Below, piece after piece: positions 9,549 to 22,824 of a DNA stretch of 64,000 nucleotides. How positions within the stretch are numbered: the stretch's first letter is position 1; each line of letters opens with the position of its first letter. The DNA comes from Gammaproteobacteria bacterium. Lineage in GTDB: Bacteria; Pseudomonadota; Gammaproteobacteria; 21-64-14. Location: contig JALUXX010000053.1 in the NCBI GenBank assembly GCA_027013145.1, positions 1 through 64,000 of the forward strand, read 5' to 3'. Under the pieces are notes generated by a model. It ran no database searches and was not told where the DNA came from. It saw nothing but the letters and a program-made list of their open reading frames with translations. The position numbers were made by a program, and so were the translations under genes.

Positions 9549-10655
9549 ATGTCCGACCCCAGCCTGCCGGGCGCGATGCGCGCCTGCATTCAGAAGATCG
9601 CGACCGGACCGGAACTGAGCAAGGACCTCTCGTTCGAGGAGGCCAGGGCCGGGATGCGCGCCATCCTGGAAGGCGGCGTCGATCCGGTGCAGGCGGCGGT
9701 CTTCCTGATCGCGCTGCGGATGAAGCGCGAGACCGACGACGAGAATCGGGGGATCCTGCGGGCCCTGATCGAGGCCACCGCCACGGTGCACGCCGATGTG
9801 GACGAAGTGGTCGACGTCGCCGATCCCTACGACGGCTATGCCCGCACGCTGCCCGCCTCTCCGTTCCTGCCGGCGGTGCTCGCGGCCTGCGGCGTTCCGG
9901 CGCTCGCGCACGGCGTCGATTCGCTCGGTCCCAAGTACGGGATCACCCACCGCAAGGTGCTCGCCGCCGCCGGCGTCCCGGTCGACGACAGCCCGCAACA
10001 GGCGGCGCAACGGCTCGCCGACCCGGAACGCGGCTGGGCCTACGTCGATCAGCGCGCCTTCTGCGCCCCGCTCCACGATCTGCGGGGCCTGCGGACGCTG
10101 ATCGTCAAGCGCCCCTGCCTGACGACGGTGGAGGTCCTGTTGGGGCCGATCCGGGGACGCGTGCGCACCCACCTCCTCACCGGATATGTGCACAAGGCCT
10201 ACCCGCGGGTCTATGCACTGCTCGCACGCGAGGCGGGTTTCGACTCCGCGCTGATCGTGCGCGGCGTCGAGGGCGGCGTCATCCCCTCGCTCCAGCAGCC
10301 GGCCAAGGTCTTCGAATACCACGACCGCGGCGAGGAGCGCCAGATCCTGGTCGATCCGGCGAGCATCGGCATCGAGCAGCCGGTGCGCGCCGTGCCGCTG
10401 CCCGACGACCTGCCCGCCGTCCCTGCGGCGGAGGACCGCATCGCGAGGGAGTTCGATGTCGATGCGGCGGCCGCCGCGGCGGCCGCCGCGGGACTGGCCG
10501 CGCTCGACGGACGCCCGGGACCGACGCGCGACAGCCTGATCTACGCGGCCGCGATCTGCCTGCACCACCTCGGGCGGTACGCCTCCCTGCAGGAGGCCGC
10601 CCGCGCGGCGGCGCGCAGCCTGGATACCGGAGCGGCACGCGCCCGTTTTCAATAG
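9549..10655 (+). CDS. TrpD-like glycosyltransferase family 3 protein (not canonical TrpD)
   Basis: A 368-residue protein with the fold signature of the anthranilate/nucleoside phosphoribosyltransferase family: an N-terminal helical domain (DLSFEEARAGMRAILEGGVD, then VFLIALRMKRETDDE) and an alpha/beta domain. The PRPP-binding motifs of true TrpD (GTGGD, KHGNR) are absent or altered; the matching regions read ADPYDGYART and LAHGVDSLGPKYG. It is thus more like the YbiB/TrpD2 group, whose E. coli member binds nucleic acid. Start ATG 9549 is the first Met before the conserved N-terminus; its Shine-Dalgarno is weak. A 65-residue protein follows 69 bp later. Enzymatic role uncertain. Confidence 0.8.
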   Translation: MSDPSLPGAMRACIQKIATGPELSKDLSFEEARAGMRAILEGGVDPVQAAVFLIALRMKRETDDENRGILRALIEATATVHADVDEVVDVADPYDGYARTLPASPFLPAVLAACGVPALAHGVDSLGPKYGITHRKVLAAAGVPVDDSPQQAAQRLADPERGWAYVDQRAFCAPLHDLRGLRTLIVKRPCLTTVEVLLGPIRGRVRTHLLTGYVHKAYPRVYALLAREAGFDSALIVRGVEGGVIPSLQQPAKVFEYHDRGEERQILVDPASIGIEQPVRAVPLPDDLPAVPAAEDRIAREFDVDAAAAAAAAAGLAALDGRPGPTRDSLIYAAAICLHHLGRYASLQEAARAAARSLDTGAARARFQ

Positions 10656-10724
10656 ACGGCCCCAAGGGCCGATGTGCACCGCAACCTGTCTTTCGACCAT
10701 CGAGAACGAAGCGAGGAAGCAGCG

Positions 10725-10922
10725 ATGAGCAACGCCTACTACGAGACCGTAACCAAGATGGAGAAGGCCGGGGTCGACCCCGAGTACATCCAGGGCTGGG
10801 AGGGCGGCTACCTGCACAACCCCAAGCGTGAGGAGCAGCGGGTGAACGACGCCTACAACGCGGGTTACGAAGACGGACTCGCCCAGAAGACCGACGCCTT
10901 CAAGGACTGGGTCAAGAAGTAG
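10725..10922 (+). CDS. Small conserved hypothetical protein (65 aa)
   Basis: A 65-residue acidic/basic helical protein with the pattern GWEGGYLHNPKREEQ and DAYNAGYEDGLAQK, starting at ATG 10725 behind GAGGAAG. It has no cysteine, signal or membrane segment. The AYNAGYEDG repeat-like turn loosely recalls small ribosome-associated factors, but the similarity is too weak for a call. It is cotranscribed with the TrpD-like gene by spacing. A perfect 14-bp hairpin follows at 10962-10991. Confidence 0.7.
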   Translation: MSNAYYETVTKMEKAGVDPEYIQGWEGGYLHNPKREEQRVNDAYNAGYEDGLAQKTDAFKDWVKK

Positions 10923-13943: not shown

Positions 13944-14362
13944 ACCGTCCCGGCCCGGCCGCCCCCGTCCTGCTGGAGATTCTCGAGTCGGGGGGCTATC
14001 CGGACTTCTCGGGACTCTATCGCGAGGCGGGGTTCGAACCGTTGCGCGCGCGGTCGATGCGCGCCGGGCTGCGGCTGTTGCGTGAGGCCGCGCCGGCTGT
14101 GGTGGTTGTGGAATTCGTCTATACGCCGCACTACAGCTTCCGCATCAGCAGCCTCGAATCCTTGATGGCGGGGATCCAGGCGGCCGGCCGCCGCCCGCGG
14201 CTCGTAGTCCTCGCCGAGCGCGCGGACGCCGCACACCTGGACCGCCTGGAGGCAAGGATGGACATCGACGCCCGGCTGCTCCTGCCGGTACACGCCGAGA
14301 CCCTACGCGCCGCACTGGGCCCGGCGCCGGCCGACCCGCGGCTCAGTCGGGGGGAGCGGTGA
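13940..14362 (+). CDS. Hypothetical protein coupled to the GNAT gene (140 aa)
   Basis: A 140-residue protein beginning at GTG 13940 inside a GTGA overlap with the acetyltransferase. It reads as an alpha/beta protein with alternating hydrophobic strands (AAPAVVVVEFVYTPHYSFRI; PRLVVLAERADAAHLDRLEA), loosely like a receiver fold. It lacks the phosphoacceptor pattern and has no cysteine or signal peptide. I do not recognise the family. Its 3' end overlaps the convergent 110-residue gene by 20 bases. Confidence 0.65.
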   Translation: MNRPGPAAPVLLEILESGGYPDFSGLYREAGFEPLRARSMRAGLRLLREAAPAVVVVEFVYTPHYSFRISSLESLMAGIQAAGRRPRLVVLAERADAAHLDRLEARMDIDARLLLPVHAETLRAALGPAPADPRLSRGER

Positions 14363-14675
14363 GGATCTCGTGCTCGAGCATGTCGCCGCCGGTGTCGATG
14401 CGCACCCCCGTCGCCCCCGGGTGATGGGTCAGGATGTAGCCGGCCATGAGCAGCAGTGTCGCCTGCTGACCGGTGTGCAACGCCGTGAGCAGCCGGTCGG
14501 CGGCGATCTGACAGCGTTGCAGCGGCTCGGGATGGTCGATCCAGCTGCGGCTCATCTGCCAGCCCCGGTCCATATCCCGGTCCATCTTCGCGAAGAACTC
14601 GGCCCCTTCCTCGAGGATATACGCCGGCACCTCGATGGGGTACGATTGATCGTCGACGTAGACTGTCAGTAACAT
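14343..14675 (-). CDS. Conserved hypothetical protein (110 aa)
   Basis: A 110-residue soluble protein starting at ATG 14675. It begins with a short beta-hairpin-like stretch (MLLTVYVDDQSYPIEVPAYI), continues with an amphipathic helix (LEEGAEFFAKMDRDMDRGWQ), and ends in a helix plus strand (LLLMAGYILTHHPGATGVRI). No cysteine and no known motif. It is a single minus-strand gene between two plus-strand genes and is divergent from the PKHD hydroxylase (71 bp apart). Confidence 0.7.
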   Translation of the reverse strand: MLLTVYVDDQSYPIEVPAYILEEGAEFFAKMDRDMDRGWQMSRSWIDHPEPLQRCQIAADRLLTALHTGQQATLLLMAGYILTHHPGATGVRIDTGGDMLEHEILTAPPD

Positions 14676-14746: not shown

Positions 14747-15421
14747 ATGCTCATACGGCTGACCAAGGTCCTCGACGCTGAGCGCCTGCAGGCCGTCGCC
14801 GAACTGCTCACGGGCGCGGACTTCGTCGACGGGCGCCTGTCCGCGGGGGCCGAGGCCCGCCGCGTCAAACGCAACCTCGAACTGGCGCCCGGATCGGATC
14901 GCCGCGAGCGGCTGAACGCCGTCGTCATGAACGCGCTCGTGCGCCACCCCGACTATCAGGCGGCGGCGTTGCCAGCGCGGGTCGCCACCCCATTTTATGC
15001 GCGCTACGCCCCGGGCATGAGTTACGGCGAGCATGTCGACAATCCGGTCATGGGCAGCGCGCCGCACCTGTACCGCGCCGACGTCGCGGTGACGATCTTT
15101 CTCAACGACGCGACCGATTACGACGGCGGGGAACTGTGGATCCGGACCACCTTCGGCGATCAGACCGTGAAGCTGCCCGCGGGCGACGCGGTGCTCTATC
15201 CCGCTTCCAGTCTCCACCGCGTCACGGAGGTCACGCGCGGCGAGCGCCGCGTGGCGGTGACCTGGGTCCAGAGCCTGGTCCGCGACGCCGCCCGGCGCGA
15301 GCTGCTCTACGAACTGCACCGTGCGCGCGAAAAGCTGTTGCGCGACGCGCCGCAGGCCCCGGAAACCCTCGGCGTCGGCCGCGCCTACCTGAACCTGATC
15401 CGCATGTGGGCCGAGACCTGA
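14747..15421 (+). CDS. PKHD-type Fe(II)/2-oxoglutarate hydroxylase
   Basis: A 224-residue hydroxylase of the PiuC/YbiX family. The iron ligands are H96-x-D98 (YGEHVDNPV) and H157 (SSLHRVTEV), and R167 is the likely 2-oxoglutarate anchor (RGERRVAVTW). The C-terminal signature (RRELLYELHRAREKL) is also present. PiuC-type genes are often linked to iron-siderophore uptake, but no TonB receptor lies here. A perfect 11-bp hairpin (15453-15477) follows. Substrate unknown. Confidence 0.9.
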   Translation: MLIRLTKVLDAERLQAVAELLTGADFVDGRLSAGAEARRVKRNLELAPGSDRRERLNAVVMNALVRHPDYQAAALPARVATPFYARYAPGMSYGEHVDNPVMGSAPHLYRADVAVTIFLNDATDYDGGELWIRTTFGDQTVKLPAGDAVLYPASSLHRVTEVTRGERRVAVTWVQSLVRDAARRELLYELHRAREKLLRDAPQAPETLGVGRAYLNLIRMWAET

Positions 15422-15504: not shown

Positions 15505-15708
15505 TCAGCGGTGGGAGCCGCGCTCGGCGTGCGCCATCTCCAGGACCTTCAGCGCCAATTCGTTGTATTTCTGCCGGTATTGGTAGAGCGGGTGACCTTC
15601 CGGGGGAAGGTAGAAGTCCTCGGGATCGACCCCGCTCTGATGCTCGTACTCGGAGAACTTGTGCTGCATCTCCAGCATCTGCTTGATCAGGTCCTGCTTG
15701 TTGCTCAT
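15505..15708 (-). CDS. Small conserved hypothetical protein (67 aa)
   Basis: A 67-residue helical protein starting at ATG 15708 with AAGGAGAGG upstream. The pattern DLIKQMLEMQHKFSEYEHQS, then GVDPEDFYLPPEGHPLYQYR, then KYNELALKVLEMAHA suggests two helices around a Pro-rich turn. No cysteine. It is the last gene of the minus-strand set TauD-like, 64 aa, Cas6-like, RspA, 67 aa. A 17-base motif shared with the dsr upstream region lies 93 bp before its start. Function unknown. Confidence 0.72.
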   Translation of the reverse strand: MSNKQDLIKQMLEMQHKFSEYEHQSGVDPEDFYLPPEGHPLYQYRQKYNELALKVLEMAHAERGSHR

Positions 15709-15800
15709 CGCGCCTCTCCTTCGACAGAAAGTTCGGCGGGCACATCGTGCCCGAATTGGAAGATCCGGTGGCTCGAAGCTACCACAGGCCCGTGCGACCC

Positions 15801-15817
15801 TCCATATCCCATATGGG
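15801..15817. promoter_or_regulatory. Operator-like motif shared with the dsr upstream region
   Basis: TCCATATCCCATATGGG contains the inverted repeat CCATAT-CCC-ATATGG. Fifteen of 17 bases match TCCATATCCCTTTTGGG at 18317-18333, upstream of dsrA. It lies between rspA and the 67-residue gene. Confidence 0.45.
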
Positions 15818-15872
15818 GCCCGCGTTCCCGCCTGCGGATGGCCCGTCCCCTCCGGCGGCCGCACGATCCGCT

Positions 15873-16214
15873 TCAGTATCCGCCCTTGCGGCGGCTTTCG
15901 GGCAGACCGGCGATGCGCCCGCCCTGCTTGCTCGGGTCCTTCGGAAACAAGCCGTAGAGGGTCTTGGCCTCGACCTTCTCTCCGGACCAGATCTCCTGCA
16001 TTCCCTTCACCATCGTGCGCGTGTTGGGCTGCGCCCCGGCATGGTTGAAATACTGATCGCGCAGGTAGTGGATCACGTCCCAGTGGCGATCGGTCAGCTC
16101 GATGCCCTCTTCCGCGGCGATCACGTGCGCCAGCTCTTCGCTCCAGTCGTCGGTGTTCTCCAGGAATCCGGTGGCCGTCGTCGCGATCGTCTTACCGCCT
16201 ACTTCCAACGTCAT
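15873..16214 (-). CDS. rspA: DsrC/TusE-family protein lacking both redox cysteines (RspA type)
   Basis: A 113-residue DsrC-fold protein. MTLEVGGKTIATTATGFLEN, then DRHWDVIHYLRDQYF, then TLYGLFPKDPSKQGGRIAGL align with DsrC. The C-terminal arm ends AGLPESRRKGGY where DsrC ends AGLPKPTGCV. Both conserved cysteines are thus missing (CysB position is Gly; there is no penultimate Cys), so it cannot carry sulfur like DsrC or TusE. Such members have been termed RspA and proposed to be regulatory; that role is unproven. ATG 16214 matches the start of DsrC. It follows the Cas6-like gene by 91 bp. Confidence 0.86.
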   Translation of the reverse strand: MTLEVGGKTIATTATGFLENTDDWSEELAHVIAAEEGIELTDRHWDVIHYLRDQYFNHAGAQPNTRTMVKGMQEIWSGEKVEAKTLYGLFPKDPSKQGGRIAGLPESRRKGGY

Positions 16215-16305
16215 TTGCGCTCCCCTTCCGATGTCGACCGGACCGTCCTGCCCCGCGCGGCCTCGGCGCCGGGGCGATTGCGGTCCGCAGTGGTTGAAAA
16301 CGCTC

Positions 16306-16992
16306 TCAGTCGTCGTCGCGCCGGACCGGAGCGACGCCCTTGTGTGGAATGAACAGCCCGCAACCCATCGTGCGCCCCGGACCGAGCCCGCGCTGCTGCA
16401 GGCGCACGGACTGCTCGGGCTCCAGATCCGCGACCATGAGGCTGCGCGTGAACACCACACCGTCCGGCGTGCGCAGCGGGTGCGAACGCCCGCACAGCAT
16501 CTTGCGGACCGGGATCTCCATCCGGCGCAGCACCGTGGCGCAATCCGCCAGGAATTCCTCCTCGCTCCCTTCCGGGTCGGCCGCCACGTAGCGTGCGAAC
16601 AGGGTCGGCAGCGGGCTGAGCGGGCGCACCACCGCGGCGCCTACGCCGAGCCGATGACCCGCGATGTCGAGTTCCGCGCCGCTCAGCGCCCGCGCGTCGT
16701 CTACACGCGCCTTCGGCAGGCGCAGGGTCATGCGCGTGCGCCGCGAGAGATATAGCACGTCCTCCGGGTCGTCCGGCCGATACCAGCCGTTGCCCGATTC
16801 CGCGCCGTGGATGAGGTGTACGCCCGCATCGGCCTCCGATTCGAGCCACGGCAGCACCGCGCCCAGCGCGCTGGAGAGCGCGTGGGCGTGGTCCAGCGGC
16901 AGGCTGCGGCAGGAAATCGCGAACGCGAGATCCACGATGTCCTCGGGTACCACGTAGGCCTTGGAAGCGCCGTCGTCCTCGTCCCAGTACAT
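16306..16992 (-). CDS. Cas6/Cmx6-like RAMP-fold protein, no CRISPR context
   Basis: A 228-residue protein I recognise as resembling the family named type I-MYXAN Cas6/Cmx6. The N-terminal part (VDLAFAISCRSLPLDHAHAL) would be the first ferredoxin-like fold. Candidate acid/base residues are H36 and H38. A Gly-rich loop near the C-terminus (GLGPGRTMGCG, residues 202-212, then GLFIPHKG) matches the Cas6 G-loop pattern. Cas6 proteins cut CRISPR repeat RNA, but no array or other cas gene is in the window, and the neighbours are RspA and a TauD-like oxygenase. A different RNA target is therefore plausible. Start ATG 16992; ATG 17013 is an alternative overlapping the gene before it. Confidence 0.78.
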   Translation of the reverse strand: MYWDEDDGASKAYVVPEDIVDLAFAISCRSLPLDHAHALSSALGAVLPWLESEADAGVHLIHGAESGNGWYRPDDPEDVLYLSRRTRMTLRLPKARVDDARALSGAELDIAGHRLGVGAAVVRPLSPLPTLFARYVAADPEGSEEEFLADCATVLRRMEIPVRKMLCGRSHPLRTPDGVVFTRSLMVADLEPEQSVRLQQRGLGPGRTMGCGLFIPHKGVAPVRRDDD

Positions 16993-17005: not shown

Positions 17006-17200
17006 TTATCCATGCGGCGCCCCGGAAAAGATCGCCTCGAGCCGCTCCTCCCAGTCCTCGGGCGTATCCTGGAACGGGGGCTTGACGTCCATGCTGAAGA
17101 AGCGCTCGCCGCTGCGTGCACGTTCCGCGACCACCGTGACCAGATCCTCGAACGACCCGAGTTCGTGGTGCTGAAGCAGGATCTCGCTCAGCCAGAGCAC
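17006..17200 (-). CDS. Small conserved hypothetical protein (64 aa)
   Basis: A 64-residue protein starting at GTG 17200 (GGGAGGTGG upstream), with the pattern LWLSEILLQHHELGSFEDLV, then GERFFSMDVKPPFQDTPEDW, then EERLEAIF. It overlaps the 3' end of the TauD-like gene by 13 bases and ends just before the Cas6-like gene, so the three are one transcription unit. No cysteine or membrane helix. Function unknown; the tight coupling suggests a subunit or adaptor for one of its neighbours. Confidence 0.72.
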   Translation of the reverse strand: MLWLSEILLQHHELGSFEDLVTVVAERARSGERFFSMDVKPPFQDTPEDWEERLEAIFSGAPHG

Positions 17201-18117
17201 GCCGCCACCTCCCGTTCGCAATCCGCCGGCCCGGTGCCGGCGATGCGGTCATAATAACGCGCCCGGTAGAGCAACCGCGAGCGCCCGGCCTCCGGGTCGT
17301 CCCGGAACGCGCCGCGCGAGTGGAGGACGTTGTTGCAGATCACGCCCTGCCCCGGGGCGAGGCGGTGACGGAACACGAACGGCGAATCGTCGCCGACCAG
17401 TTCCGCCAGCATCGCCGCCGCCGCCCGGGTGTCCCGGTCGTCCTTCCAGCGGATGCTTCGGGTGCGGGCCGTGTAGCGCATATGCAGGGTCCCGCTGTCC
17501 GGATCGATCGAAAAGACGGGGCCGGTGCGCGCGCCGCGCAGCTCGGTCCCGCCTTCCGAATTCGGGGGGATGGTGACCGCGTCGGCCTGCATCAGGGCCT
17601 CGACGTAGCGCGGTCTGGCATCGCGCAGTTGCAGATAGACCATTTCCGGATCCAGCAGACCGTTGTCCCCGCCGCGGGCGGCGTCGCGGACGCAGTGGAT
17701 CACGAACGCACGGATCTGGAGTTCGGCCGGGTTGTAATACCCGTCGGTGTGCCAGTTCAGGGGCCGGTCGCTGTAGGGGATATAGCCCGCGCGGCGACCG
17801 CCGGCGATGACCCGCAGCGAGGTGATGCGGTCGCCGTCGGCGCACAGATTCCCGTCGAGTCGCGCGAGGCCGAAGCGGCGCCCGAGCGCGCGCACGCATT
17901 CCTTGGAGGTGTAATCGCCAGCGGCGATCTCGTAGATCGCGACGTTGGCTTTGCGGCAGCGTGACAGGATCGCGGCGTGTTCCGCGGGAGTGACCGTCCC
18001 GGCCTCGCCGAGGCGCACCAGGAGGTCCGCGCTCGTGCGCGGATAGCCGTCGAGCTTGCGCTCGCGCCAGCGCCGGTAGGCGTCATCGTCCCGGAGGGAG
18101 AACGGATTGCCCCTCAC
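17188..18117 (-). CDS. TauD/TfdA-like Fe(II)/2-oxoglutarate dioxygenase
   Basis: A 309-residue dioxygenase. The facial triad reads H123-x-D125 (LNWHTDGYYNP) and H266 (NNVLHSRGAF), with R281 (RSRLLYRARYY) as the expected 2-oxoglutarate-binding arginine. The family includes taurine dioxygenase, which releases sulfite, but also gamma-butyrobetaine and many other hydroxylases, so the substrate cannot be assigned. GTG 18117 is the likely start, with GGAGT upstream. It begins the minus-strand unit that continues with the 64-residue protein and the Cas6-like gene, and it is divergent from dsrA with a 497-bp gap containing a 14-C tract. Confidence 0.87.
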   Translation of the reverse strand: MRGNPFSLRDDDAYRRWRERKLDGYPRTSADLLVRLGEAGTVTPAEHAAILSRCRKANVAIYEIAAGDYTSKECVRALGRRFGLARLDGNLCADGDRITSLRVIAGGRRAGYIPYSDRPLNWHTDGYYNPAELQIRAFVIHCVRDAARGGDNGLLDPEMVYLQLRDARPRYVEALMQADAVTIPPNSEGGTELRGARTGPVFSIDPDSGTLHMRYTARTRSIRWKDDRDTRAAAAMLAELVGDDSPFVFRHRLAPGQGVICNNVLHSRGAFRDDPEAGRSRLLYRARYYDRIAGTGPADCEREVAACSG

Positions 18118-18614
18118 CGAATGGACTCCACGGTTTCGCCCGCGCCGGGGTTGGCTTGGGCCCGACCGCCCCCCCCCCCCCCGGGCGACGCCGGCCCGAT
18201 GCACATGCGCCGGCGATCTGGCGGGCACGACAGAGCTATACTCTATCCAAACACGGGTGCGGGCGCCGACGTGGCAGCCCTGTGCCGCCCAATAACAACC
18301 AGCGGGCCGGGGAACTTCCATATCCCTTTTGGGATAATTCCCAAGCCCCAAATATTCCAATTGGTAGGGTATTCGCCCTGTGCCCCCCACCGTAGACTTG
18401 CAGGGTCAGGTTGCTTGCGCACTGCGGCCCCGCCCACGGGTCCCCCGCAGCACGGATATCCGTTTGCAATGAAGGTGATTGCAGTTGATACGAGGGTTCC
18501 GTCACTTCCACCAGACCTGCCTTGGACGCGGCGCTCGCGCGGTAGCGGATCGTTCCGCGCGCACCGGCCGCCGCGGCGGGCCGCAGACCGTTGCCATATT
18601 TGAAGGAGACCGCC
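18118..18614. promoter_or_regulatory. Intergenic region upstream of dsrA (497 bp)
   Basis: Divergent region between the TauD-like gene and dsrA. It holds a run of 14 C (18169-18182), a hairpin TATCCC-TTTT-GGGATA (18321-18336) inside the motif shared with 15801-15817, and the palindrome CCAATTGG in a locally AT-rich stretch (about 18320-18370). The last 200 bases are GC-rich. TGAAGGAG serves as the dsrA ribosome-binding site. I cannot place -10/-35 elements with confidence. Confidence 0.55.
18317..18333. promoter_or_regulatory. Copy of the shared operator-like motif upstream of dsrA
   Basis: TCCATATCCCTTTTGGG, matching the motif at 15801-15817 in 15 of 17 positions. It lies 282 bp before the dsrA start and 200 bp before the TauD-like start, so it could control either. 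Confidence 0.45.
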
Positions 18615-19883
18615 ATGGCTAAAGACCTCCACGATACCCCGATGCTGGATGAACTGGAATCCGGCCCGTGGCCCAGCTTCATTTCCGGAATCAAGCGCCT
18701 GCGCGACCAGCACGGCGACGAGCGCATCCGCGGCGTGGCCAATGACCTGCTGGGCCAGCTCGAGCATTCCTACGAGACCCGCAAGGGTTACTGGAAGGGC
18801 GGTACGATCAGCGTGTACGGCTACGGCGGCGGGATCATCCCGCGCTTCTCCGAAGTCGGCCAGCAGTTCCCGGAGTCCAAGGAATTCCATACCCTTCGTG
18901 TCCAGCCGCCCGCCGGCAACTACTACACCACCGATATCCTGCGTCAGCTCGCCGACAGCTGGGAGAAGTGGGGGTCCGGCCTCGTGACCTTCCACGGGCA
19001 GACCGGGAACATCATGTTCATCGGTGCGGACTCCACCAACACCCAACACTTTTTCGACGAGATCAACGACTACGGCTGGGACCTCGGCGGCGCCGGCCCG
19101 TGCGTGCGCACGGGGATGTCCTGCGTGGGCGCGGCCCGTTGCGAGATGTCGAACTGCAACGAGCACCGCATCCATCGGACCCTGCTGACCCGTTTCACCG
19201 ACGACATCCACCGCCCCGCCCTGCCTTACAAGTTCAAGTTCAAGGTCTCCGGTTGCCCCAATGACTGCATGAACTCGATCGAACGGTCGGACTTCGCGAT
19301 CATCGGCACCTGGCGCGACGACATGAAGATCGACCAGGAAGAGGTCAAGGCCTTCGTGGCGAAGAAAGGGCGCCAGTACGTGCTCGACAACGTCACGAGC
19401 CGCTGCCCGACCAACTGCATGACGCTCAACGACGACGACACCCTCAGCGTCGACAACCGCAACTGCGTCAAGTGCATGCACTGCCTGAACGTCATGCCCA
19501 AGGCCCTGCATCCGGGCGACGACAAGGGGATCAGCATCCTCATCGGCGGCAAGCGCACGCTCAAGATCGGAGACCTGATGGGCACGGTGATCGTCCCCTT
19601 CATGAAGATGGAGACGGACGAGGACTACCAGCGCCTCGTGGAGATCGCCGAGAACACGATCGACTTCTGGGCCGAGAACGGGCTCGAGCACGAGCGTTGC
19701 GGCGAGATGATCGAGCGCATCGGGCTCGTCAACTTCCTCGAGGGCATCGGCCTCGAGGTGGATCCGAACATGGTCCAGCATCCGCGCAAGAGCTCCTACA
19801 TCCGTACGGACGGCTGGGACGAAGAGGCGGAGAAGTGGTTCCGCCGCAAGGCCGAGGACAAGCAGAAGGCGGTCGGCGCCTGA
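18615..19883 (+). CDS. dsrA: Dissimilatory sulfite reductase alpha subunit, reverse type
   Basis: A 422-residue alpha subunit of cytoplasmic DsrAB, which in sulfur oxidisers forms sulfite from sulfane sulfur held by DsrC. The siroheme-[4Fe-4S] ligand pattern is C170-x5-C176 and C214-x3-C218 (VSGCPNDCMNS). A ferredoxin insert at about residues 264-290 carries C264, C268, C284, C287 and C290. A good Shine-Dalgarno (TGAAGGAG) precedes ATG 18615. First gene of the operon; an 11-bp GC hairpin separates it from dsrB. Assignment to the oxidative type rests on the dsrEFH and dsrL genes downstream. Confidence 0.98.
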   Translation: MAKDLHDTPMLDELESGPWPSFISGIKRLRDQHGDERIRGVANDLLGQLEHSYETRKGYWKGGTISVYGYGGGIIPRFSEVGQQFPESKEFHTLRVQPPAGNYYTTDILRQLADSWEKWGSGLVTFHGQTGNIMFIGADSTNTQHFFDEINDYGWDLGGAGPCVRTGMSCVGAARCEMSNCNEHRIHRTLLTRFTDDIHRPALPYKFKFKVSGCPNDCMNSIERSDFAIIGTWRDDMKIDQEEVKAFVAKKGRQYVLDNVTSRCPTNCMTLNDDDTLSVDNRNCVKCMHCLNVMPKALHPGDDKGISILIGGKRTLKIGDLMGTVIVPFMKMETDEDYQRLVEIAENTIDFWAENGLEHERCGEMIERIGLVNFLEGIGLEVDPNMVQHPRKSSYIRTDGWDEEAEKWFRRKAEDKQKAVGA

Positions 19884-19886
19884 GCA

Positions 19887-19917
19887 CGCCCCGCCCCGCC
19901 CCCATCGGGGCGGGGCG
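19887..19917 (+). terminator. Strong hairpin between dsrA and dsrB
   Basis: CGCCCCGCCCC (19887-19897) is exactly complementary to GGGGCGGGGCG (19907-19917), with a 9-base loop and no U-tract. dsrA and dsrB encode a 1:1 complex, so it is more likely an mRNA processing or stability element than a full stop. Confidence 0.6.
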
Positions 19918-19973
19918 GCGCATGAATCGGTTTCGGCTCAAAACTACGAGATTGATCGCGGGAGATCCTGAGC

Positions 19974-22401: not shown

Positions 22402-22734
22402 ATGCCGATCGACGTGAATGGAAAGTCCCTGGAAACCGACGAGGAGGGCTACCTCGCCAACCTCAACGACTGGAACCCCGATGTCGCGACCAAGATGGCT
22501 CAGGACGACGGCGTGGAACTGTCGGAGAACCACTGGGAAGTGATCAACTTCCTGCGTGAATATTACGAGGAATATCAGATCGCCCCGGCGGTGCGCGTGC
22601 TGACCAAGGCCATCGGCAAGAAGCTCGGCCCGGACAAGGGCAACAGCAAGTATCTCTACGAGCTGTTCCCGTACGGTCCCGCGAAGCAGGCCTGCAAATA
22701 CGCCGGCCTGCCGAAACCGACCGGCTGCGTCTGA
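22402..22734 (+). CDS. dsrC: Sulfur carrier protein DsrC
   Basis: A 110-residue sulfur carrier. It ends in the flexible arm KQACKYAGLPKPTGCV with both redox cysteines, C98 and C109; the penultimate C109 carries the sulfane sulfur that DsrAB oxidises, giving a DsrC trisulfide as the exchange form. AAGGAG precedes ATG 22402. A terminator-like stem follows immediately. This is the functional carrier, in contrast to the cysteine-less paralogue at 15873-16214. Confidence 0.98.
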   Translation: MPIDVNGKSLETDEEGYLANLNDWNPDVATKMAQDDGVELSENHWEVINFLREYYEEYQIAPAVRVLTKAIGKKLGPDKGNSKYLYELFPYGPAKQACKYAGLPKPTGCV

Positions 22735-22743
22735 CCCGCGGTA

Positions 22744-22770
22744 CAGGGGGGAGAATTCCGCTCCCCCCTG
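22744..22770 (+). terminator. Terminator-like hairpin after dsrC
   Basis: CAGGGGGGAG (22744-22753) pairs exactly with 22761-22770 around a 7-base loop and is followed by CCCCGTTTTCC. A partial terminator here would give dsrA-C far more transcript than dsrM-R, in keeping with the need for abundant DsrC. Confidence 0.7.
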
Positions 22771-22824
22771 CCCCGTTTTCCTTACCAGCGACGACCCGGC
22801 GCCCGCGCCGGAGAGATCGGAAAC

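Follow-up and report, generated by a model that had tools for sequence, protein, structure and literature searches.

The cas6 gene described here is independent of CRISPR and is coupled near-perfectly, across genomes, to dsrA and to a gene for a cysteine-less DsrC paralogue, for which we use the label RspA taken from the first-pass annotation. The two genes are neighbours in the window, that is, the whole 64-kb stretch of DNA that was analysed, and lie beside a divergent dsr (reverse dissimilatory sulfite reductase) operon. We see an even chance that this Cas6 was exapted for RNA binding or cleavage together with RspA in Dsr sulfur oxidation, a reading drawn from sequence comparisons. Although the protein family is known, no open-access paper seen describes it as a constant element of sulfur metabolism away from CRISPR. 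In the open-access literature, to which the search was confined (subscription papers were outside its scope), no paper was found that links the dsr-type Cas6 or RspA with dsr.

The cas6 gene (16306..16992, minus strand) encodes a protein of 228 aa. Translation most likely starts with the ATG at 16992, a position conserved in relatives, given that their proteins likewise open with M(Y/F/L)W; an upstream ATG at 17013 would yield 235 aa. The first-pass annotation had described a 228-residue Cas6/Cmx6-like protein with a Gly-rich loop and had placed it and its downstream partner within 15873-16992. Both the description and the coordinates proved correct. The profile searches matched the protein to Pfam PF09559 (E 2.5e-66; 223.7 bits, threshold 26.7) and to NCBIfam TIGR02807, cas6_cmx6 (140.2 bits, cut-off 98.85), and the Cas6 models of PADLOC matched it with E-values down to 5.6e-65. 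For an AlphaFold2 model made from 19 input sequences (pLDDT 87.7, pTM 0.82), the top Foldseek match in the PDB was the Cas6 of a type I-B CAST Cascade (8fcj; E 7.7e-16, TM 0.72/0.78). Nearly all of the 44 PDB matches with E<1e-3 were Cas6 or Cse3, which identifies a RAMP/Cas6 fold. The comparison of structures on which the earlier proposal had been made to depend was thus in its favour.

The alignment of 122 distinct family members revealed a catalytic-type histidine, His42 (235-aa numbering), as well as Arg92 and Arg98, each of which is invariant in 122/122 sequences. From general knowledge of Cas6 we take His42 to be the catalytic residue. The glycines of the Gly-rich loop, which reads GLGPGRTMGCG in the 228-aa protein, are kept in at least 121/122 members, a count that is partly biased, as are the NGW columns, because the patterns that fetched part of the loci included both segments; His42, Arg92 and Arg98 lay outside these patterns. 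The 228-aa protein is a true member of the Cas6/Cmx6 family. The invariance of the histidine and the two arginines argues for retained chemistry, as far as can be read from sequence, and makes it rather unlikely that the protein binds RNA or serves as a scaffold without cleaving, e.g. in a Dsr-associated complex with RspA. Such a role would have precedents, as several RAMP-fold proteins bind without cutting, and the closest solved relative, the I-B CAST Cas6, has an Asn in the position of the histidine.

In a phylogenetic tree, 44 dsr-linked Cas6 proteins formed one side of a branch with 100/98 support, opposite the Cmx6 proteins of CRISPR systems. The tree included seven cyanobacterial plasmid homologues, six of which are encoded in I-MYXAN cas operons. 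The inner order of the tree is uncertain, with long branches and unsettled bootstrap values. On a plasmid of Gloeobacter morelensis (9974-10765), a Cas6/Cmx6 gene is annotated that has no cas neighbours and lies near genes of the PAPS-reductase family; perhaps it is another non-CRISPR Cas6.

The downstream partner gene, rspA (15873..16214, minus strand), encodes 113 aa and was assigned by profile and alignment to the DsrC family (PF04358, E 2.1e-34; TIGR03342, 102.9 bits against a cut-off of 53.5). As had been claimed before, it has lost both sulfur-carrying cysteines: the protein contains no cysteine at all, its C-terminus reads GLPESRRKGGY, and in the alignment glycine occupies both positions of the DsrC arm cysteines, including the penultimate one that marks a DsrC/TusE carrier. 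The canonical DsrC of the same window (22402..22734, plus strand; profile and alignment) was used for comparison and has both arm cysteines (ACKYAGLPKPTGCV). RspA ends with GKGGY in three further genomes of the class from the phylum sample. An RspA gene was found within 1.5 kb of cas6 in 35/41 loci, and 30 of these 35 proteins are free of cysteine, while the other five have a single one, outside the arm. One genome, G000, contains six genes of the DsrC family, one of them in a longer open frame of 536 aa.

DsrC takes sulfur via its arm cysteines (PMC3397948). Because RspA has none and thus cannot carry sulfur in the way of DsrC, it probably serves instead as a subunit for docking or sensing. 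Family membership also bears on the possibility that the pair acts on tRNA, i.e. that Cas6 binds or cleaves tRNA or senses its thiolation, and thereby couples sulfur supply to translation. RspA resembles TusE, a member of the E. coli sulfur relay to MnmA for tRNA 2-thiouridine. TusE/TusBCD are homologues of DsrC/DsrEFH, and an interaction of TusE with MnmA is described (PMC3397948). A member of the DsrC/TusE family with an RNA-binding fold as its partner would suit such a function. We nevertheless consider it unlikely, as none of the results pointed to tRNA, Cas6 is coupled to dsrA, and a dsr-type Cas6 is almost never present in genomes that lack dsr.

The pair is embedded in a conserved gene block. 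The proximity of the dsr operon, also pointed out earlier, was confirmed: dsrABEFHCMKLJOPNR begins at 18615 on the opposite strand with dsrA (18615..19883, plus strand) and extends to 31606. The divergent neighbour of dsrA is a gene for an Fe(II)/2OG dioxygenase of the TauD/TfdA family (17188..18126, minus strand, start approximate; PF02668, E 1.1e-18), the position of which is conserved. It is followed by ORF71 (17006..17200, minus strand), which encodes a conserved protein of 64 aa from a GTG start and lies directly upstream of cas6; its AlphaFold2 model consists of three helices, and a fold search gave no PDB match. Downstream of rspA lies ORF67 (15505..15708, minus strand), encoding a conserved 67-aa protein. 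The block ends with a convergent gene, also conserved in position, for a PKHD-type Fe2+-dependent dioxygenase similar to PiuC/YbiX (14747..15421, plus strand; NF003974, E 3.2e-71), and a conserved gene for a 110-aa protein (14343..14675, minus strand) is often present at its outer end.

The usual order, tauD, orf71, cas6, rspA and orf67 divergent to the dsr operon, and then the convergent PKHD dioxygenase gene, recurred in about 80 named loci, which include Thioalkalivibrio, Thiohalobacter, Thiogranum, Thioploca, Venteria, Marithrix, Thiomargarita and others. In many lineages a conserved gene of about 235 aa is inserted between orf71 and cas6. Pfam contained no family for this inserted gene, ORF67, ORF71 or the 110-aa ORF. 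In loci of the Beggiatoaceae type only orf71-cas6 is kept, with neither dsr nor rspA adjacent. Two genomes have a second dsrAB pair that is not accompanied by the rest of the operon (G000, contig C9, 49656-50861; G001, contig C24). In a genome of the same genus as the source, the interval from dsrE to orf71 lacks dsrAB, and the sole dsrA match above the cut-off is on another contig.

The distribution of the genes was analysed in an even sample of 369 genomes of the class, with at least 100 bits to TIGR02064 required for a dsrA call. PF09559 Cas6 was present in 117 genomes, essentially in single copy, and dsrA in 118. Both occurred together in 110 genomes, Cas6 alone in 7 and dsrA alone in 8 (Fisher p=1.5e-74), and many of these exceptions are uninformative because the assembly is incomplete or a contig breaks off at the key genes. 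For example, the dsr contig of G124 breaks just beyond orf71, the block of G128 stops at the contig end, and cas6 of G316 is located at the end of a contig that also carries dsrN and dsrR. The two genes share a contig in 83 genomes, 81 of which have them in divergent orientation at a distance of 0.66-4.5 kb. Similarly, RspA orthologues, defined by at least 53% identity, were found among 55 relatives in 15/17 Cas6-positive and in 0/38 Cas6-negative genomes (p=1e-11), which leaves two Cas6-positive genomes without an orthologue. There is a gap between the orthologues (E at most 1.5e-39) and the DsrC/TusE paralogues (E at least 7e-27). The combination of a stand-alone Cas6 with RspA is therefore conserved across the class and not an accident of this locus.

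The coupling might merely reflect inheritance of a neighbourhood, with Cas6 having a housekeeping or defence role apart from Dsr; the genes of the block are indeed inherited together, and the same lineages carry Cas6 and dsr. Three results make this very improbable. When one genome per family was counted, the numbers for both genes, Cas6 only, dsrA only and neither were 52/3/4/99 (p=4e-33), and hence the coupling survived. An RspA orthologue was also detected in three genomes in which cas6 is on another contig. Finally, five genomes of only 1.0-1.1 Mb, all devoid of Cas1, retain tauD-orf71-cas6-rspA beside dsr, which argues for a needed role.

The statement of the first-pass annotation that CRISPR is absent from the 64 kb holds for the window, in which no CRISPR-like repeats were detected, but the genome (3.28 Mb, 99.9% complete, one Cas1) is not free of CRISPR. 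A complete type I-G CRISPR-Cas locus is located around Cas1 on a different contig from cas6-rspA and comprises Cas3g, Cas8g/Csx17, Cas7g, Csb2, Cas4-Cas1 and Cas2, together with an array of at least 55 repeat copies with a spacing of about 73 nt. Csb2/Cas56g matches models of Cas5-6 fusions (PADLOC E 7.8e-147). Because Csb2 is a Cas5-6 fusion, the I-G system has a Cas6 domain of its own, and from knowledge of the family we presume that Csb2 processes the repeats of this system. An array that lacks its own cas6, named beforehand as speaking against a stand-alone Cas6, is thus not what the genome contains. A Cas6 of the PF01881 type was not found in the genome, and neither was a DevR-type Cas7 of I-MYXAN systems. 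None of the viral contigs searched encodes a dsr-type Cas6.

These results bear on the possibility that the dsr-linked Cas6 still serves CRISPR by processing crRNA in trans, for the I-G array of the genome or for arrays elsewhere. Its clear membership in the Cas6 family and the presence of an array with many repeats would fit this role. However, we regard it as extremely unlikely, given that the I-G locus has its own Csb2 and that I-MYXAN Cas7 is lacking. In addition, no association of Cas6 with cas1 was observed in the class: Cas1 was present in 136/369 genomes overall and in 50/117 of those with Cas6 (p=0.13), and the 67 Cas6-positive genomes without Cas1 include those of about 1 Mb and the same-genus genome. 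The tests of co-occurrence with rspA and with CRISPR suggested at the outset thus both favoured a Cas6 that is tied to RspA and not to CRISPR.

Beyond the class, a sample of 299 genomes of the phylum contained PF09559 in four genomes, all of which belong to the same class and have dsrA. In the three of these four that were new to the analysis, dsrA is divergent to cas6-rspA with neither tauD nor orf71 in between. PF09559 was absent from 48/48 dsrA-positive genomes of other classes. Five dsr operons of other classes were inspected; in four of them, those with a visible flank, tauD and orf71 are divergent to dsrA, and cas6 and rspA are absent from the visible flank. From this comparison it follows that tauD-orf71 is a wider companion of dsr and that cas6-rspA is a class-specific pair. 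In three of these four operons, a cysG-like gene (siroheme synthase) follows tauD-orf71, hinting that tauD and orf71 belong to the cofactor supply of DsrAB.

Several structured regions of the dsr locus were considered as candidates for an RNA target of Cas6. In the tauD-dsrA intergenic region, a putative promoter/operator of dsrA (18321..18398, plus strand) is conserved across tens of species. It contains the dyad TATCCCTTTTGGGATA at 18321-18336, a second element at about 18352-18370 and the -10-like TAGACT at 18393-18398; the perfect dyad is single in the genome. The consensus TATCCC-N4-GGGATA, CACCCCA-nn-GGTAGGGT and CCTAGACT has fixed spacing, and across species the putative operator/promoter parts are TATCCCnnnnGGGATA, CACCCCAnnGGTAGGGT and CCTAGACT, again with fixed spacing. 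The dyads were considered as RNA hairpins for Cas6 and set aside: with fixed distances of about 20 nt from the dyad to the second element and about 16 nt from there to TAGACT, they resemble a DNA operator/promoter, and they lie upstream of the presumed start. Most simply, the element is a putative operator plus promoter. At the rspA|orf67 junction (about 15790-15820 in the window), many loci contain a dyad and a -10-like box: CCCATnnGGGGATATGG, an element related to that of dsrA, stands ahead of orf67, in many cases with a TATAGT-like box behind it, suggesting that orf67 may be co-regulated with dsr.

At the level of RNA structure, the strongest signal was observed at dsrC|dsrM (mean z -2.7), followed by rspA|orf67 (-1.7) and dsrA|dsrB (-1.4), and a hairpin signal of z<-2 was present at dsrC|dsrM in 68% and at dsrA|dsrB in 42% of the loci. 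A clear structure signal was not found in the dsrA 5'UTR or at the cas6|rspA junction (mean z -0.97 and -0.31). The hairpins at dsrC|dsrM and dsrA|dsrB were also rejected as candidates, since they occur in the dsr operons of genomes that lack Cas6 and are gone from the genomes of about 1 Mb that retain it; at least in general, they are not the target of Cas6. The strong hairpins after dsrC (22735-22824) and after dsrA (19884-19973) are conserved in position and not in sequence, are present outside the class, too, and are possible attenuators or mRNA stabilisers. Rfam detected one tRNA only in the window.

If Cas6 was indeed exapted, the following scenario may be envisaged. A Cmx6-type branch of Cas6 would have parted from CRISPR and settled as a regular member of the dsr locus in Gammaproteobacteria. 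Cas6 would bind, and probably cleave, a specific stem-loop RNA in trans, and RspA, by docking either on Cas6 itself or on the Dsr machinery, might make RNA processing respond to how the sulfur pathway is running. In this manner the pair could tune gene expression or the metabolism of RNA while sulfur is oxidised. That a sulfur-oxidising ancestor captured a CRISPR RNA-processing enzyme a single time, giving rise to an RNA-based control of dsr with RspA that was kept even in genomes of about 1 Mb, is a tentative extension with a less than even chance of being correct. Oxidative-type dsr operons outside the class, which work with neither Cas6 nor an adjacent RspA, stand against the exaptation model. 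So do the two Cas6-positive genomes that have no RspA orthologue, the loci of the Beggiatoaceae type, and the result that none of the structured regions considered yielded an RNA target. There is a real chance that Cas6-RspA is a new kind of regulatory system. If so, a major group of sulfur oxidisers would have domesticated a component of CRISPR for its core energy metabolism, the control of the Dsr pathway would include a previously unrecognised step at the RNA level, and the cysteine-less DsrC would gain a partner. Annotation pipelines count the dsr-linked Cas6 as CRISPR.

Comparison with known systems places the locus as follows. It has the operon order of the Dsr sulfur-oxidation locus (dsrABEFHCMKLJOPN), in which tauD-orf71 is divergent to dsrA in other classes as well, whereas the cas6-rspA pair, unlike the dsr operon, occurred in a single class among the genomes sampled. 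RspA retains the family profile of DsrC/TusE (PF04358, TIGR03342) and the C-terminal arm, but it is only about 37% identical to the DsrC of its own genome, and its arm ends with RKGGY, both arm cysteines being replaced. Csb2 of the I-G system differs from the dsr-linked Cas6 in being a separate protein on a separate contig and in a bona fide CRISPR context. The closest solved structure is the Cas6 of the transposon-encoded type I-B CAST Cascade (PDB 8fcj/8fcu; profile E 4.5e-24), which has Asn where the dsr-linked Cas6 has the conserved His. The Cas6/Cmx6 proteins of type I-MYXAN, encoded for example on plasmids of Synechococcus, Nostoc and Gloeothece, are members of the same family (TIGR02807, PF09559) with 24-28% identity, and these true CRISPR proteins have the histidine and the Gly-rich loop in common with the dsr-linked Cas6. 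Their genes are part of cas3-cas8a1/cmx8-cas7-cas5 operons, whereas the dsr-linked cas6 has no other cas genes beside it, its neighbours being those of the dsr block in place of cas3, cas8a, cas7, cas5 and an array. Compared with I-MYXAN Cmx6, the dsr-linked Cas6 is further distinguished by an extra NGWxRP segment in most members and by a C-terminal PHK motif.
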